From contig JAUIJG010000386.1 in assembly GCA_030431355.1 (NCBI GenBank), positions 1-5,073 of the forward strand: a stretch of DNA of 5,073 nt, written 5' to 3'. Source of the stretch: a bacterium (lineage in GTDB: Bacteria; Cyanobacteriota; Vampirovibrionia; Obscuribacterales; Obscuribacteraceae). Below are positions 297-5,016 of the stretch, piece by piece (positions within the stretch are counted from its first letter, which is position 1; the number at the start of each line of letters is the position of its first letter). Made by a program: the position numbers and the translations under genes. The notes beneath the pieces are model-generated. The model was not told the origin of the DNA. It worked only from the letters and a program-made list of their open reading frames with translations, and did no database searches.

Positions 297-2087
297 ATGA
301 AGAACAGACTTACTAGAAATCTATTGATTATCGTAGCGATCCCGCTTTCTTTTGAGCTGGCATTGTTTTCAAGTTGTTTTCTATTGATCAATGTGGCGGA
401 ACAAGAGAGAGCCCTGGAAACGGATTCCATAACGGTCACCTCGAAAATCTCACCGGTGATGGTATCATCACTGGAGCTGCTCACCCTGGCCATTGCCTAC
501 AGCATAAAAGACTTAAGATTCGAAGACCCTTTCAAACAGTCTGATTCCAAGACAGTTTTCAGAGAGATAGCGGATCTGGAAGAGGTGGGCAGACAGCATC
601 CCGATTACCAGAAATCTATAGAAGCCCTTTGTAAAAACAGTCGCGAACTCTTTCACCTGGTGCAAAAATTCAAAACCACCAAAGACACCAGAAAAGACAT
701 CAGCAAGGTTCTCACCCTGAAAGACTGCATCATGGGCATTGAAGAGTCGGCTAATTTCGTCCTGGATGAAATTAAGGAACATCGAGAAGAGTTATCTAAA
801 ACAGATTCCTATGTCCGAAACGTGATCCACACCATCCTCTGGTGCGCCCTGGGAATAAGTCTTTTGGTCGCGGCACTGGGAGTGGCGGCATTTCATCGAC
901 TTCTCAGTGTCCCTCTTAAAGAATTGAACAACAGGGCCAGACAATTAGCCCTGGGAAAACGCCTGGAGCCGGCCTTCGAATCCGATGACGAGTTGGGAGC
1001 CCTCAGTCGCGCCTTCGAAACCATGGCAGACGAAGTGGAAAAAAATCGAAGACTGGAAAACGCAATTTATGAAAATACTGCCGACATCGTGCTAACCATC
1101 GACGAAAAGAACAAAATCACGATGCTAAACGACGCAATTGAAGAGAACACCGGATTCAGGAAGTCCGGATTTCTGAACGCAGATGTTCTGAAGTTGATAC
1201 CGGATGAAGAGAAGAGCACCGTAGAAAAGCAACTTTCCGACATTAGAAAAAGAGAGTCTTACGGCTCCTTCGAATCCGGAATTTTGACGGCTTCGGGCCA
1301 TAGCATCGATGTGGTCTGGTCCGTGAGGTGGTCGAAGAAAGACGAGATTCTTTTCTGCACGGTCAACAACATAGACTATGAAAGAAAAACGGAACGTCTC
1401 AGTAAAGACTTGAGAACAATACTGGCCTCCGACCTGAAAAGGAACCTCGAAAACGCCCATAAAACCGTGGACAACCTCAAAAAACGGGGACTTCAGGACA
1501 ACAACAAGATCAAACATTTGGACAGCAATCTGGCCAGGCTTCTTCCCATGCTGGATAAACTAAACGAAGCAATATCTTCCCGTTCGAAAGAGCTGGTATT
1601 GACAAAGGAGACGACCACGACAAAGAGACTGGTAAGCAATGCAGTCTCCGCCGTGGAAGCACTTTTGAAAGACAAAAATATTGCCATAGAAGATTCGGTG
1701 GAGGATATTCAGATTTATGTGGATAGCTCCCAAATAGAGCGAGTGCTCATAAATCTTTTATCCAACGCTATCAAAGTCTCCCGAAAAGATTCTGAGACAG
1801 AAGCGATCATCAAAGTAAGAGCCGGCTATCTGACAAAGGACGATGAGACCGTTGTCTTTGAGGTGGAAGACCAGGGACCGGGGATCCCCTTGAACGCACA
1901 GAGCAAACTCTTCCAACGATATTACCAGCCTAAAGTACACGAATCGAGAGAAGGGAAAGGCTCCGGTCTCGGATTGTACAGCGCCCAGAATATTGTGGAA
2001 AATCATGGTGGCAGAATTGGTGTCATGAGCGATGGAAAAACCGGAACCACTTTTTGGTTTCACCTTCCCAGAGGCAGGTCCGCGTGA
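297..2087 (+). CDS. Sensor histidine kinase A (HAMP-PAS), intact ATPase but phosphoacceptor His replaced by Ser
   Basis: This 596-residue membrane sensor kinase has TM1 at about 8-32, an extracytoplasmic helical domain at 33-176, TM2 at about 177-200, HAMP at about 201-252 (DDELGALSRAFETMADEV), PAS at about 253-360 (WSVRW at 341-345), a helical dimerisation region from about 363, and a C-terminal HATPase_c domain. The ATPase looks functional: N-box INLLSNAIKVS (Asn490), G1 EDQGPGIP (Asp525), LFQRYYQP as F-box, and G2 GKGSGLGL (from 553). The H-box is not normal: where gene B has VSHDLRSPL, this protein has LASDLKRNL, so Ser378 (TCC, 1428-1430) replaces His and Asn replaces Pro. It probably cannot autophosphorylate but could bind ATP and phosphorylate a partner. 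The ATG at 297 is chosen because it aligns the N-terminus with both paralogues. The in-frame GTG at 213 and ATG at 228 lie inside the terminator hairpin, and the ATG at 249 lies in the -10 box. The Shine-Dalgarno sequence is weak. The stop overlaps the start of gene B. Confidence 0.9.
   Translation: MKNRLTRNLLIIVAIPLSFELALFSSCFLLINVAEQERALETDSITVTSKISPVMVSSLELLTLAIAYSIKDLRFEDPFKQSDSKTVFREIADLEEVGRQHPDYQKSIEALCKNSRELFHLVQKFKTTKDTRKDISKVLTLKDCIMGIEESANFVLDEIKEHREELSKTDSYVRNVIHTILWCALGISLLVAALGVAAFHRLLSVPLKELNNRARQLALGKRLEPAFESDDELGALSRAFETMADEVEKNRRLENAIYENTADIVLTIDEKNKITMLNDAIEENTGFRKSGFLNADVLKLIPDEEKSTVEKQLSDIRKRESYGSFESGILTASGHSIDVVWSVRWSKKDEILFCTVNNIDYERKTERLSKDLRTILASDLKRNLENAHKTVDNLKKRGLQDNNKIKHLDSNLARLLPMLDKLNEAISSRSKELVLTKETTTTKRLVSNAVSAVEALLKDKNIAIEDSVEDIQIYVDSSQIERVLINLLSNAIKVSRKDSETEAIIKVRAGYLTKDDETVVFEVEDQGPGIPLNAQSKLFQRYYQPKVHESREGKGSGLGLYSAQNIVENHGGRIGVMSDGKTGTTFWFHLPRGRSA
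2071..2087 (+). promoter_or_regulatory. Ribosome binding site and GTGA stop/start overlap between A and B
   Basis: GAGG (2071-2074) and AGG (2076-2078) lie 9 and 5 bases before the GTG at 2084. The GTG overlaps the TGA stop of gene A at 2085-2087. This four-base overlap decides the start of gene B and implies termination-reinitiation coupling, which would tend to keep the two products in fixed proportion. Confidence 0.7.
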
Positions 2088-3814
2088 GACTGACCGGTTC
2101 CGTAGCGGCCAAAGTGGCGTTCATGCTCTGTATTCCGGTGATTTTCGAAGTCACCGTAATCGCAAGCTCCATGCACCTTCTGAATGAAATAGATTCGGCA
2201 AGGCAGGAAAGAAAAAAAGTAAGCAACATTATCGCTCTATATGCCAGCACCCTGGCCGTCATAATGAGGGACCATATTCGCTTCTTCACTGTCTTTAGCT
2301 CCGGCAAGACTTTGAGCAGACAGAAATGCAACCAGATCTATCAGAGCACTTATGATGCCACGGAAAAACTTACGGTGGCTTGGAAAAACGCCGGGTTCGA
2401 CTTTAAAGAGATCAATGACATGGGCATGGAAGCCCACAGGAGATATCCGAAAGCCACCTACGGATTCGACGAAAAACTTCTAAAGGAGCAGGTAGCTCGC
2501 CAGGATCTCCTGGCCAATGTGGTCCTGGCCGTGGACCGCAGCATACACAAAAGAGCTAACGTCCTCCAGGAAAGAGAACAAAAGGAGAGAGAGCTGTTCT
2601 GGAAAATGAACGTGCTCCTGATTGCCGCCCTGGTGACCAGCCTGCTTCTTACCCTGGGTCTCTGTTTTATTATCAATCGCCTTCTTCTCGACCGGCTTGC
2701 CACTGTAAGTGAAAACACCAGAAGACTGGCGATGGATAAACCGCTACTGGAGATGTTGAGGGGGGATGATGAAGTAGCCCAACTGGACAAGACTTTTCGC
2801 ACCATGGCCCAGACCCTGGCCAACGCCCGCGAAAAAGACCAGTTGATCCTCGATAACTCCTCGGACATAATCGCTGCCATCGATGAGAATTATTGTTTTC
2901 AGAAAGTGAGCAAAGCATGCGAACTGGTTTGGCAGATTGAAGAAGAACACCTATTAAATAGTCACATATCAGAGATTCTGGGTAGCGACTCCCAGGTTGA
3001 AACTTTGAACATGCTGGACAGAGCCAGAGAATCAAATACGGTGGCTAAATTCGAGAATACAACCGTGGCAGCCGACGGCACCGAGATTCCGTCATTGTGG
3101 TCGGTAAAATGGACGGAAGAGGAATCCCTGTTTATTGCGGTCATCCATGACTCAAGGAACAGGAAAGAGGCGGAAACCAAAAGACAAGAGCTTCTTGCCA
3201 TGGTAAGTCACGACCTGAGAAGCCCCCTGACCACTGCTACACTATCCCTGGATACACTTTTAAAAGACGACAGCCTCGATTCTAAAGCTCGAAATGAACT
3301 TTCTAAAGTGAACAAATCAGTGGAACACGTGGTCTCCACCACAAACGATCTGATTGACCTGATGAGAATTCAACAAGACCGAATCAGTCTTAATCTTGCT
3401 CTGGTCAGCATAGAAAAGGCCAAAACCTTACTGGAAAAGCGCCTGGATGATGAGAACATCCCCTGTGATATCACAATCAGTGCATCCAATGTCTCTTTAA
3501 TCCTGGATGAAGATTATTTCCCCCGGGTGGTGCTTGCCTTGATTCGTCATTTGAGACTCTCCAGCGGCGAAGGAAAAATCCTCATAGAGATAAGCTTCAA
3601 GAAGCCGACGGTTATTTTCAAAATCGAATCTACCGCTCCTGGAAACAGCAAGGAGAGCGATGAAAGCAAGAGGATCAGCTGGGAGATATCCCTTGGTCTG
3701 ACCGGGGAGATCCTGAACAAGCTCAAAGGCGACCTCCTCACATCCTGGACCGCCAAAGGTCAGCCTGTCTACAACCTGATTCTGCCTATCTGCGAAATAG
3801 AGGAAGAAGATTGA
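2084..3814 (+). CDS. Sensor histidine kinase B (HAMP-PAS), intact H-box but degenerate ATP-binding domain
   Basis: This is a 576-residue paralogue of gene A: TM1 at about 8-33, extracytoplasmic domain at 34-172, TM2 at about 173-199, HAMP at about 198-250, PAS at about 251-362 (WSVKW), then a canonical H-box AMVSHDLRSPLTTATLSL with His376 (CAC, 3209-3211). The catalytic domain is eroded. At the N-box, LALIRHLRLSS has His489 where A has Asn490. At G1, IESTAPGN has Ser516 where A has Asp525. The F-box and ATP lid are largely missing, with about 11 residues between G1 and G2 against about 21 in A. At G2, SWEISLGL replaces GKGSGLGL. It should accept a phosphoryl group but is unlikely to bind ATP. 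The GTG start at 2084 overlaps the TGA of A (GTGA), has GAGGCAGG just upstream, and aligns residue for residue with the start of C. An alternative TTG at 2054 lies inside gene A and would add ten non-conserved residues. Translational coupling with A is likely. Confidence 0.9.
   Translation: MRLTGSVAAKVAFMLCIPVIFEVTVIASSMHLLNEIDSARQERKKVSNIIALYASTLAVIMRDHIRFFTVFSSGKTLSRQKCNQIYQSTYDATEKLTVAWKNAGFDFKEINDMGMEAHRRYPKATYGFDEKLLKEQVARQDLLANVVLAVDRSIHKRANVLQEREQKERELFWKMNVLLIAALVTSLLLTLGLCFIINRLLLDRLATVSENTRRLAMDKPLLEMLRGDDEVAQLDKTFRTMAQTLANAREKDQLILDNSSDIIAAIDENYCFQKVSKACELVWQIEEEHLLNSHISEILGSDSQVETLNMLDRARESNTVAKFENTTVAADGTEIPSLWSVKWTEEESLFIAVIHDSRNRKEAETKRQELLAMVSHDLRSPLTTATLSLDTLLKDDSLDSKARNELSKVNKSVEHVVSTTNDLIDLMRIQQDRISLNLALVSIEKAKTLLEKRLDDENIPCDITISASNVSLILDEDYFPRVVLALIRHLRLSSGEGKILIEISFKKPTVIFKIESTAPGNSKESDESKRISWEISLGLTGEILNKLKGDLLTSWTAKGQPVYNLILPICEIEEED
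3801..3814 (+). promoter_or_regulatory. Ribosome binding site and TTGA stop/start overlap between B and C
   Basis: AGGA at 3801-3804, within the purine run AGAGGAAGAAGA, sits six bases before the rare TTG start at 3811, which overlaps the TGA of gene B at 3812-3814. The start is fixed by exact alignment of the C N-terminus (IP.FFE motif at residues 17-22) with that of B. Confidence 0.7.
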
Positions 3815-4725
3815 ATTTCGGCGGTTCGATAGCATTCAAAGTAGCACTTATTCTGTGCATCCCGGTGTTTTTTGAGATAGCAGTAATCGGGACTTCCATA
3901 CATCTTCTGGGCGAAATAGACAAAGCCAGAGTAGAGAGAAAAGAAGTCAGCAAAATAGTATCCCTCTATGCCGGCATGCTGGGAATCATGATGCGAGACT
4001 ATATCCGCTTTCTCACTACGTTCAGTGACGGAAACAAGATCTCCCAAAAGGAGATAAATCAGTTGTACGCCAGGACCTACAAAATCTCAAACAAACTTGG
4101 ACAAATGGGTGTAAAAGCAGGGTTCAAGATTGAAGAGATAGACAAGAAAAAACAACAGGTTGACCGACGCTTCCCACTGCCGGTTCACGGCATGGATGAA
4201 AAGCTACTGAAGAAACAGATGATGCACTACAATCTTCTGCACAACTTGATTGCGGAAGCGAATAAGAGCATCAAAGATAGAGCCGTAATAGTGGAGGTGA
4301 AAGAGAAAAGAGAAAAGGAGTTGTTCTGGAAGATGAATCTTCTCCTTCTTGCTGCTCTTGCGGCAAGCATACTTCTAACCGTCTCACTCTGTTTTCTGAT
4401 CAACCGTGTTCTCCTGGAGAGACTGGCAGCGGTGGCTGAAAATACAAACCGACTGGCCCTGGACAAGCCTCTATTGCCGGACCTGGAAGGTAACGATGAG
4501 GTCTCCCAACTGGATAGAACTTTCCGAAAGATGGCAGACGCTCTTGCCCGGACAAGGGAGCGCGACCAGCTAATTCTGGACAATTCTTCCGATATCATCG
4601 CCGCTATCGACGAGACTTTTGTGTTCGTATGCAGTTCTAATATCGTCCGGCACGACAATTACGTGCATTGGTCTCTCCATGTGCTCAATTTGAAACGGAA
4701 CCGGAGTCCGATCCCAAGGCATTAG
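3811..4725 (+). CDS. Truncated sensor paralogue C: sensor, HAMP and start of PAS, no kinase domain
   Basis: This 304-residue protein is collinear with gene B, without gaps, from residue 1 to about 270: TM1 at about 8-33, extracytoplasmic domain at 34-172, TM2 at about 173-199, HAMP, and the first strand of the PAS domain (LILDNSSDIIAAIDE). Over residues 161-270 I count 75 identities in 110 with B. Similarity then stops abruptly and 34 unrelated residues follow before TAG at 4723-4725. The rest of the PAS domain, the H-box and the ATPase are absent, and neither of the other two plus-strand frames restores them, so this is not a simple frameshift. The TTG start at 3811 overlaps the TGA of B (TTGA) and has AGGA (3801-3804) six bases upstream. 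The protein could act as a membrane sensor or decoy subunit, or be a recent remnant; the uninterrupted frame up to the break favours recent loss or retained use. Confidence 0.75.
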   Translation: MNFGGSIAFKVALILCIPVFFEIAVIGTSIHLLGEIDKARVERKEVSKIVSLYAGMLGIMMRDYIRFLTTFSDGNKISQKEINQLYARTYKISNKLGQMGVKAGFKIEEIDKKKQQVDRRFPLPVHGMDEKLLKKQMMHYNLLHNLIAEANKSIKDRAVIVEVKEKREKELFWKMNLLLLAALAASILLTVSLCFLINRVLLERLAAVAENTNRLALDKPLLPDLEGNDEVSQLDRTFRKMADALARTRERDQLILDNSSDIIAAIDETFVFVCSSNIVRHDNYVHWSLHVLNLKRNRSPIPRH

Positions 4726-5016
4726 AAGGGTGACTCTTGGCAAAGGTAAATTCGAAGTTGTATCTTTCTCAAATTCCAAATCTCGCCTTACAAGTATTTT
4801 GTTTTTCGCACTCTTATGCAAAAGTTGCAGGAATTTTTGCTTTTCCCACACTTGTTTTGATGCCGCGATTTCTCGTGCGCCGTAAGTCGCGATTAAAACT
4901 TCCAGTACTTTTTGGATTTCACTTGTCAGAGTACTGGTGCCCCGTGGGTAATAGATGAATAAGCTTCGTTGGCCTTCAGGGAAATCATTGTTGTTATCAG
5001 TATTGCTGTCAGTCAT
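4570..5016 (-). CDS. Unrecognised protein with a probably chimeric, truncated C-terminus
   Basis: This minus-strand gene of 148 residues begins at the ATG complementary to 5014-5016, with AAGGA (5031-5027) ten bases upstream and a preceding gene ending only 13 bases before it. The first 15 residues are Asn/Asp-rich. A compact soluble-looking domain follows, with hydrophobic strands SLFIYY (18-23) and VTLLMPW (95-101), a helix at about 30-44, a Lys-rich helix at about 53-73 (KQVWEKQKFLQLLHKSAKNK), and a strand HVIVVPDD (118-125). There is no signal peptide or membrane segment. I do not recognise the family. From about residue 126 the frame reads antisense through the conserved codons of sensor C and stops by chance at 4570-4572, so the native C-terminus is probably lost. 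The good ribosome binding site and tight spacing to the upstream gene argue for a real gene rather than a shadow. Confidence 0.6.
   Translation of the reverse strand: MTDSNTDNNNDFPEGQRSLFIYYPRGTSTLTSEIQKVLEVLIATYGAREIAASKQVWEKQKFLQLLHKSAKNKILVRRDLEFEKDTTSNLPLPRVTLLMPWDRTPVPFQIEHMERPMHVIVVPDDIRTAYEHKSLVDSGDDIGRIVQN
4615..4640. other. Probable rearrangement junction joining truncated gene C to a truncated minus-strand gene
   Basis: Similarity of C to B ends at codon 268-271 (about 4614-4623). Beyond it the plus frame encodes residues unlike any PAS domain, while the minus strand carries a gene whose last 20 or so codons are merely the antisense of the conserved DNSSDIIAAIDE codons of C. Both genes therefore appear cut at the same place. 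I see no insertion-sequence end or target duplication here. A deletion, an inversion or a chimeric assembly would all give this picture. Confidence 0.6.

Follow-up and report, generated by a model that had tools for sequence, protein, structure and literature searches.

The window analyzed here, the 5,073 nucleotides of contig JAUIJG010000386.1, carries two overlapping genes for sensor-kinase-like proteins, A and B. Of the two halves of a histidine kinase, each protein lacks the one that the other has kept. I propose, with considerable confidence, that A and B together make up one HisKA-type sensor kinase, split into two subunits that form an obligate heterodimer and derived from complete kinases by complementary loss, in which A phosphorylates B and B serves a response regulator. 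The observations that carry this proposal are the division of motifs between the two sequences, its conservation, the co-inheritance of the genes, their order and overlap, and parallel cases elsewhere in the same order of bacteria. The relevant features of the window are these (DHp, dimerization and histidine phosphotransfer; CA, catalytic and ATP-binding):

297..2087, plus strand: gene A, 596 amino acids, putative catalytic subunit, transmembrane-sensor-transmembrane-HAMP-PAS-DHp (no His)-CA
1428..1430, plus strand: codon of A Ser378, the lost phosphoacceptor position
1764..1766, plus strand: codon of A Asn490 (N-box), invariant in the A family alignment
1869..1871, plus strand: codon of A Asp525 (G1 box), invariant in the A family alignment
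1953..1976, plus strand: A G2 box, GKGSGLGL
2084..2087, plus strand: GTGA overlap, stop of A and start of B
2084..3814, plus strand: gene B, 576 amino acids, putative phosphoacceptor subunit, transmembrane-sensor-transmembrane-HAMP-like-PAS-HisKA plus degenerate CA
3209..3211, plus strand: codon of B His376, invariant in the B family alignment
3548..3550, plus strand: codon of B His489, replacing the N-box Asn
3629..3631, plus strand: codon of B Ser516, replacing the G1 Asp

Neither A nor B is a HisKA-type kinase by itself, for neither combines the H-box His with the N, G1 and G2 motifs; by sequence, the catalytic and phosphoacceptor parts lie on two proteins, as in a split histidine kinase. 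Pfam matches A to HATPase_c (8e-26) with no HisKA listed at E<=1, and B to HisKA (4e-12) with no HATPase listed at E<=1, its filters dropping most matches above 0.1. An initial annotation, made from the letters of the window, had read A as retaining all ATP-binding motifs with Ser378 in place of the His, and B as retaining a canonical H-box (His376) while losing the N-box Asn, the G1 Asp and the G2 glycines. Every one of these residues, and A Phe539 as well, was found where it had been placed, as was the four-base overlap, from which the GTG start codon of B is inferred. Hydropathy gives both proteins an N-terminal transmembrane segment and a second one near residue 180-200. HAMP and PAS are found in A by Pfam; in B the PAS match lies slightly under the curated cut-off and HAMP is not listed, and four of ten members of the B family have a HAMP match at E<=0.1. 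These are not CheA-type proteins: the Pfam matches are to HAMP, PAS and either HATPase_c or HisKA, and none is to a CheA domain, apart from a weak HPTransfase match in 3/9 A members (best E 0.0029). The secondary structure of the model of B reads as a CA-like alpha/beta domain without the lid, and Foldseek aligns the model to histidine kinases, including the kinase region of RetS, with global template-modelling scores that are low because the models are elongated and of low predicted template-modelling score (pTM).

The split is a property of two families. At E<=0.1, Pfam finds HATPase_c in 9/9 members of the A family and HisKA in none, HisKA in 10/10 members of the B family and a HATPase family in none; both sets include near-duplicates, a filter at 85% leaving 7 A and 8 B. 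In the full-length alignment, the His position of A is occupied over 11 rows by S, R, N, I, G, D, T, E or Q, while the N-box Asn, the G1 Asp and Gly and the G2 glycines are retained. All 14 B rows, near-duplicates included, carry the H-box S-H-D-L-[RK]-[ST]-P-L, and in all 14 the N-box Asn, G1 and G2 are lost. Mean pairwise identity in the A family is 52% for CA and 38% for DHp; in the B family it is 57% for DHp and 37% for the CA-like region. Each family best conserves the half that the other has lost. The presence of the split in all aligned members, together with this reciprocal conservation, indicates that the complementary loss is more than chance.

A forms one clade and B another (support 100/100 each), with intact kinases between them, and a direct sister relationship of A and B was unsupported. 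The window groups with genome G073, and G143 with G119, in the A and the B clades alike, the G143/G119 grouping in B at 97/77 only. One sequence, H_P0030, joined B with a long-branch warning and was not used; it and H_P0137 are two stand-alone relatives whose ATPase motifs look eroded in the full-length alignment.

A and B are inherited together. Among 53 genomes of one order, which holds loci titled Candidatus Obscuribacter, B orthologues occur in four (E 4e-195 or better, against a search threshold of 1e-90, with up to 25 candidates scored in each genome). The same four have A orthologues (E 7e-203 or better), the next best matches, at 1e-105, being ordinary kinases by profile. With three candidates scored per genome, a sample of 382 genomes of the class returned the same four, and a sample of 386 genomes of the phylum returned no B outside the group, only that of the already known G073. 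A search of contigs with the B profile gave, among the matches listed, only distant kinases, the best locus at 29% identity. A stands directly before B at all four relatives' loci, the genomic association expected of a split kinase, and the two overlap by NTGA at 5/5 loci, window included; in G119 the overlap is with the A frame past an in-frame stop. After B, 4/4 relatives have an OmpR-type response regulator (receiver plus Trans_reg_C), with receiver Asp52 invariant among them; the locus of G098 is one that is complete. Its close relatives occur in the same four genomes (about 1e-135, versus 1e-77 for the next), a co-occurrence that is partly circular because the profile was built from those four. 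The initial annotation overlooked gene C (below) and also this regulator, which is known from relatives only and has its place beyond the window.

Tandem kinases are common in the order, so it was asked whether neighbors usually split. Stretches were picked by eye and without regard to motif, on the grounds of same-strand adjacency or of an open frame with room for two kinases, so that all counts are among the matches listed and not exhaustive; long open frames with a single listed match fall mostly outside the survey, and some single-kinase stretches were taken in. A transmitter profile built from complete kinases was used to scan the survey loci, the four A-B loci and the window. From 137 domains came 67 neighbor pairs, of which five, with partial domains, were dropped before counting; G098:C3, which is in the counts but outside the trees and the Fisher test, brings the 62 complete pairs to 63. 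G002:C106, where nothing is eroded, and G002:C85 are cut by contig ends and are uncounted. For four A rows of the window family, the full-length alignment supplied the residue at the His position, since the alignment to the domain profile began only past the H-box (three rows) or was a few residues off (the window).

The result is sharply divided. Both His are kept in 38/63 pairs, and in all 38 both members have 6/6 of the scored ATPase residues. One His is lost in the other 25, where the His-less member has all six ATPase residues in 24 (the exception is the A of G119) and the His-bearing partner scores 0-4 in 19, 5 in three and 6 in three. An eroded partner thus accompanies 22/25 one-His pairs versus 0/38 both-His pairs, and 17/20 one-His pairs when the five of the window family are set aside. 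No complete pair (0/63) lacks both His. The Fisher p of 1.1e-13 for 62 pairs overstates the case because the pairs are related. In six genomes, 28 both-His pairs are all intact, and 15 of 18 one-His pairs (G098:C3 among them) have an eroded partner. Stand-alone kinases of G061 and G137 have the His in 40/40 and the six ATPase residues in 39, with five in one; because strong matches were chosen, eroded ATPases will be underrepresented in this sample, and loss of the His hardly so. Adjacent pairs with the same split, which the initial annotation had thought worth seeking in related genomes, are found at all four relatives' A-B loci and as parallel pairs elsewhere in the order. Gene order in the 22 split pairs is A-first in 19 and B-first in three. 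Four of the 22 were scored as fused into one polypeptide; G005:C261 and the G002:C66 family are natural fusions. G141:C22 and G111:C9 are likewise each found within one open frame, the first of 1284 codons and the second of 1302.

Three side observations come from the same survey. Locus L221 (G002:C85:1-4000) has a His-bearing kinase with 3/6 ATPase residues and, next to it, a kinase whose ATPase end is intact but whose His region falls beyond the contig edge; this is probably a further split pair. Locus L151 (G077:C2:20000-33500) has a same-strand run of six complete kinase domains, all motifs intact; their open frames, of 1327, 1255 and 1265 codons, appear to be three double kinases, each a fusion. 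Genomes G005, G077, G137, G061, G002 and G098 each have very many kinases, with 84-138 matches to a kinase profile at E<=1e-40.

How often has this happened, and in what order? A careful tree of 131 domains was built with the H-box columns removed and the ATPase-motif columns kept. Domains starting after model position 45, ending before 140 or lacking a readable His position were left out of the trees, as was a long-branch fragment, B_G002_C66_37628, from the 131-domain tree. On it the His-less label requires 11 changes, 10 of them forced by starred branches, and the ATPase-eroded label nine, eight of them forced. The tree does not distinguish gains from losses, but on general grounds a His or ATPase, once lost, is unlikely to be regained. 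Both members of split pair G002:C142/G061:C17 are sisters to the members of an intact tandem pair, G002:C155/G061:C7 (100/97, 100/96), and the intact and the split pair therefore share an ancestral pair. In G077:C56 and G005:C342 one His is lost and both ATPases are left. These pairs, with the absence of any eroded member from the 38 both-His pairs, suggest that the His was lost first and the ATPase of the partner second. Complementary splitting recurs in this lineage, apparently in that order. I think it probable that tandem kinase duplicates in the order of Candidatus Obscuribacter have become obligate complementary heterodimers nine to ten times on the tree, by a one-way ratchet (His, then the ATPase of the partner), some pairs ending as fused single-chain pseudo-dimers.

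The mechanism that I propose for the pair goes beyond what the sequences show: it supposes that A and B dimerize, that phosphate passes between them and does so from A to B, that the regulator is the target, and that two inputs are integrated. A would bind and hydrolyze ATP and join B through the DHp helices, and within the A:B dimer the catalytic domain of A would phosphorylate B His376 in trans. From B the phosphate would go on to the OmpR-type regulator whose gene comes next in the relatives' operon. A dimer of A would be without an acceptor and a dimer of B without a catalyst. Since an extracytoplasmic helical sensor and a PAS domain belong to each subunit, output should depend on both. 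The initial annotation had arrived at an obligate A:B kinase with A phosphorylating B, and that idea gains support from the co-occurrence, adjacency, overlap, and parallel and fused cases; the transfer from A to B is what I infer from them. An intact His in A or an intact ATPase in B at orthologous loci, which the initial annotation had named as evidence against its idea, is seen at none of the four A-B loci of other genomes.

The same chemistry could be had from another assembly, in which separate A:A homodimers phosphorylate B:B homodimers on collision and no stable heterodimer forms. The interaction of CheA3 with CheA4 is described as transient (PMC3591291, cited, like the other papers here, from excerpts). 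I consider separate homodimers unlikely, since the overlap at 5/5 loci and the fused A-B polypeptides of the parallel cases favor a stable pair. Less likely still, and to my mind improbable, is a reading of B as a pseudokinase, perhaps a phosphatase or scaffold, with a modulating effect on A or the regulator, while A phosphorylates a His on some other protein and there is no working pair. RetS provides a precedent of one kinase inhibiting another (cited inside PMC12675982, as excerpted); RetS chains are among the fold matches of B, its CA remnant is still conserved (37% identity) and its model keeps a CA-like layout. Yet the entire H-box is kept in 14/14 B rows, beyond what a scaffold needs, and a His-less kinase stands beside a His-bearing partner in 25/25 such complete pairs. 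Nor does B have the motif of bifunctional HisKA phosphatases (HE/DxxN/T, as given in an excerpt of PMC3591291): the window B reads HDLRS, and the position four residues past the His is Ser, not Thr or Asn, in 13/14 B rows, Thr occurring in the B of G119. That two redundant kinases are simply decaying into pseudogenes at this locus, to which the truncated gene C and the in-frame stop in the A of G119 might be thought to point, is hardly credible and is rejected because orthologues contradict it: the split is kept in 4/4 other A-B loci and across relatives 34-56% identical, with open frames and reciprocal conservation, and random loss should yield some pairs with neither His, against the 0/63 seen.

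Several observations weigh against the proposed A:B kinase and its generality. The A of G119 (L098 1629-3413) has an in-frame stop in the G2 box, although P0006, a near-identical protein, is without it. In the window, gene C is cut and the sequence beyond it is unlike the loci of relatives; the OmpR-type regulator lies outside and is known from relatives alone, and the relatives that bear names are metagenome-assembled genomes of unstated completeness. The AlphaFold2 monomer models of A and B reach a pTM of only 0.33-0.35. In three of the 25 one-His pairs the partner has an intact ATPase: G005:C342, G077:C56 and G077:C12 (50741/48875), the His-less member of the last having also a downstream neighbor with His and no ATPase residues (partial and uncounted). 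Beyond the window family, a directly downstream OmpR-type regulator was seen in one split pair only, G077:C114 (limited flanks, OmpR-type profile only), and the A-B-regulator order was for this reason rejected as a general rule.

Split kinases as such are already familiar. What is particular here is that both partners are full-length sensors, that the losses are complementary, complete and conserved, and that the arrangement recurs across separate tandem pairs and fusions. Intermolecular complementation is familiar from the laboratory, where His-less and ATPase-less mutants of EnvZ-type kinases restore activity as a dimer; those were engineered, whereas splitting of the A/B type is natural and repeated. 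In Mycobacterium tuberculosis, Rv0600c and Rv0601c divide an ATPase-bearing from a His-bearing role, as domain-truncated halves, unlike the two full-length sensors here. With TcrA they are listed, two kinase-like proteins and one regulator, as one system (PMC8965865 and PMC9274095, excerpts). Closest in organization is FasB/FasC/FasA of Group A Streptococcus, likewise two sensor-kinase-like proteins and one regulator at one locus. There, FasB interacted with FasC in two-hybrid assays and neither formed a homodimer, FasC cannot do without His246 but can do without its kinase domain, and C-terminally truncated FasB fails to complement (PMC12675982, as excerpted). Both Fas proteins are annotated there with DHp and HATPase and with six transmembrane segments each, whereas in the HAMP-PAS HisKA-type kinases A and B each side shows a complete and conserved loss. 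The initial annotation had appealed to CheA3/CheA4 of Rhodobacter sphaeroides, and the precedent holds in that functions are shared between two proteins, which excerpts of PMC3591291 describe as a catalytic protein without a phosphoacceptor domain and a phosphoacceptor protein without catalysis, labelled together only, in a system with CheY6. It is a looser analogy than the Fas system, for these are CheA-type proteins of a cytoplasmic chemotaxis cluster with entire domains missing, and A and B are membrane kinases with the DHp region in both. Excerpts of the same paper count 1556 of 42417 HisKA proteins without detectable HATPase. Hik36/Hik43, of the cyanobacterium Synechocystis, has been termed a split histidine kinase, but it is one CheA homologue in two genes at distant loci, not two full-length sister kinases (PMC7656254, excerpt). 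The open-licence PubMed Central literature, to which the search was confined with subscription literature outside it, yielded among the papers listed no earlier report of recurrent full-length complementary pairs.

The rest of the locus concerns a second B-type gene and two small ones shared by the relatives:

3811..4725, plus strand: gene C, encoding the N-terminal portion of another B-type protein, overlapping B by TTGA
L095 13002-13508, L096 955-1401, L097 11952-12428, L098 1001-1438: small gene upstream of A in relatives
L095 8072-8587, L096 5766-6317, L097 6990-7484, L098 5975-6475: small opposite-strand protein beyond the regulator in relatives

Over its first 270 residues gene C is 97% identical to the intact protein P0122 and the same stretch is 56% identical to B; beyond about residue 270 (about position 4620) it departs from P0122. 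The break may be a real rearrangement or an assembly chimera. A minus-strand open reading frame, 4570-5016, spans the join and has no Pfam match above the cut-off. With B and C both of the B type, and P0122 an intact relative of C, one A could in this lineage serve two acceptors. The small proteins encoded upstream of A in 4/4 relatives are weakly alike and without a Pfam match; positions 1-165 of the window, the end of an open reading frame, occupy the same place and are matched by position only. The opposite-strand proteins, found at 4/4 loci, are 36-42% identical over 93-157 aligned residues and all end in GRK; the two that were scanned have no Pfam match above the cut-off. They are possibly a target or partner.

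Intact sister pairs, intermediates with loss of the His only and full splits are all extant, so on the ratchet reading the steps from homomer to obligate heteromer can be followed in present-day sequences: a replicated natural series from a homodimeric enzyme to an obligate heterodimer. Whether a neutral ratchet or selection (such as for AND-gate sensing) gives rise to heteromers of paralogues becomes directly testable, by comparison of sister loci and by simple two-protein labelling. Domain-based annotation may label such pairs dead kinases or two separate sensors. As seemingly mutually dependent pairs, they offer a natural test bed for the origin of protein partnerships.

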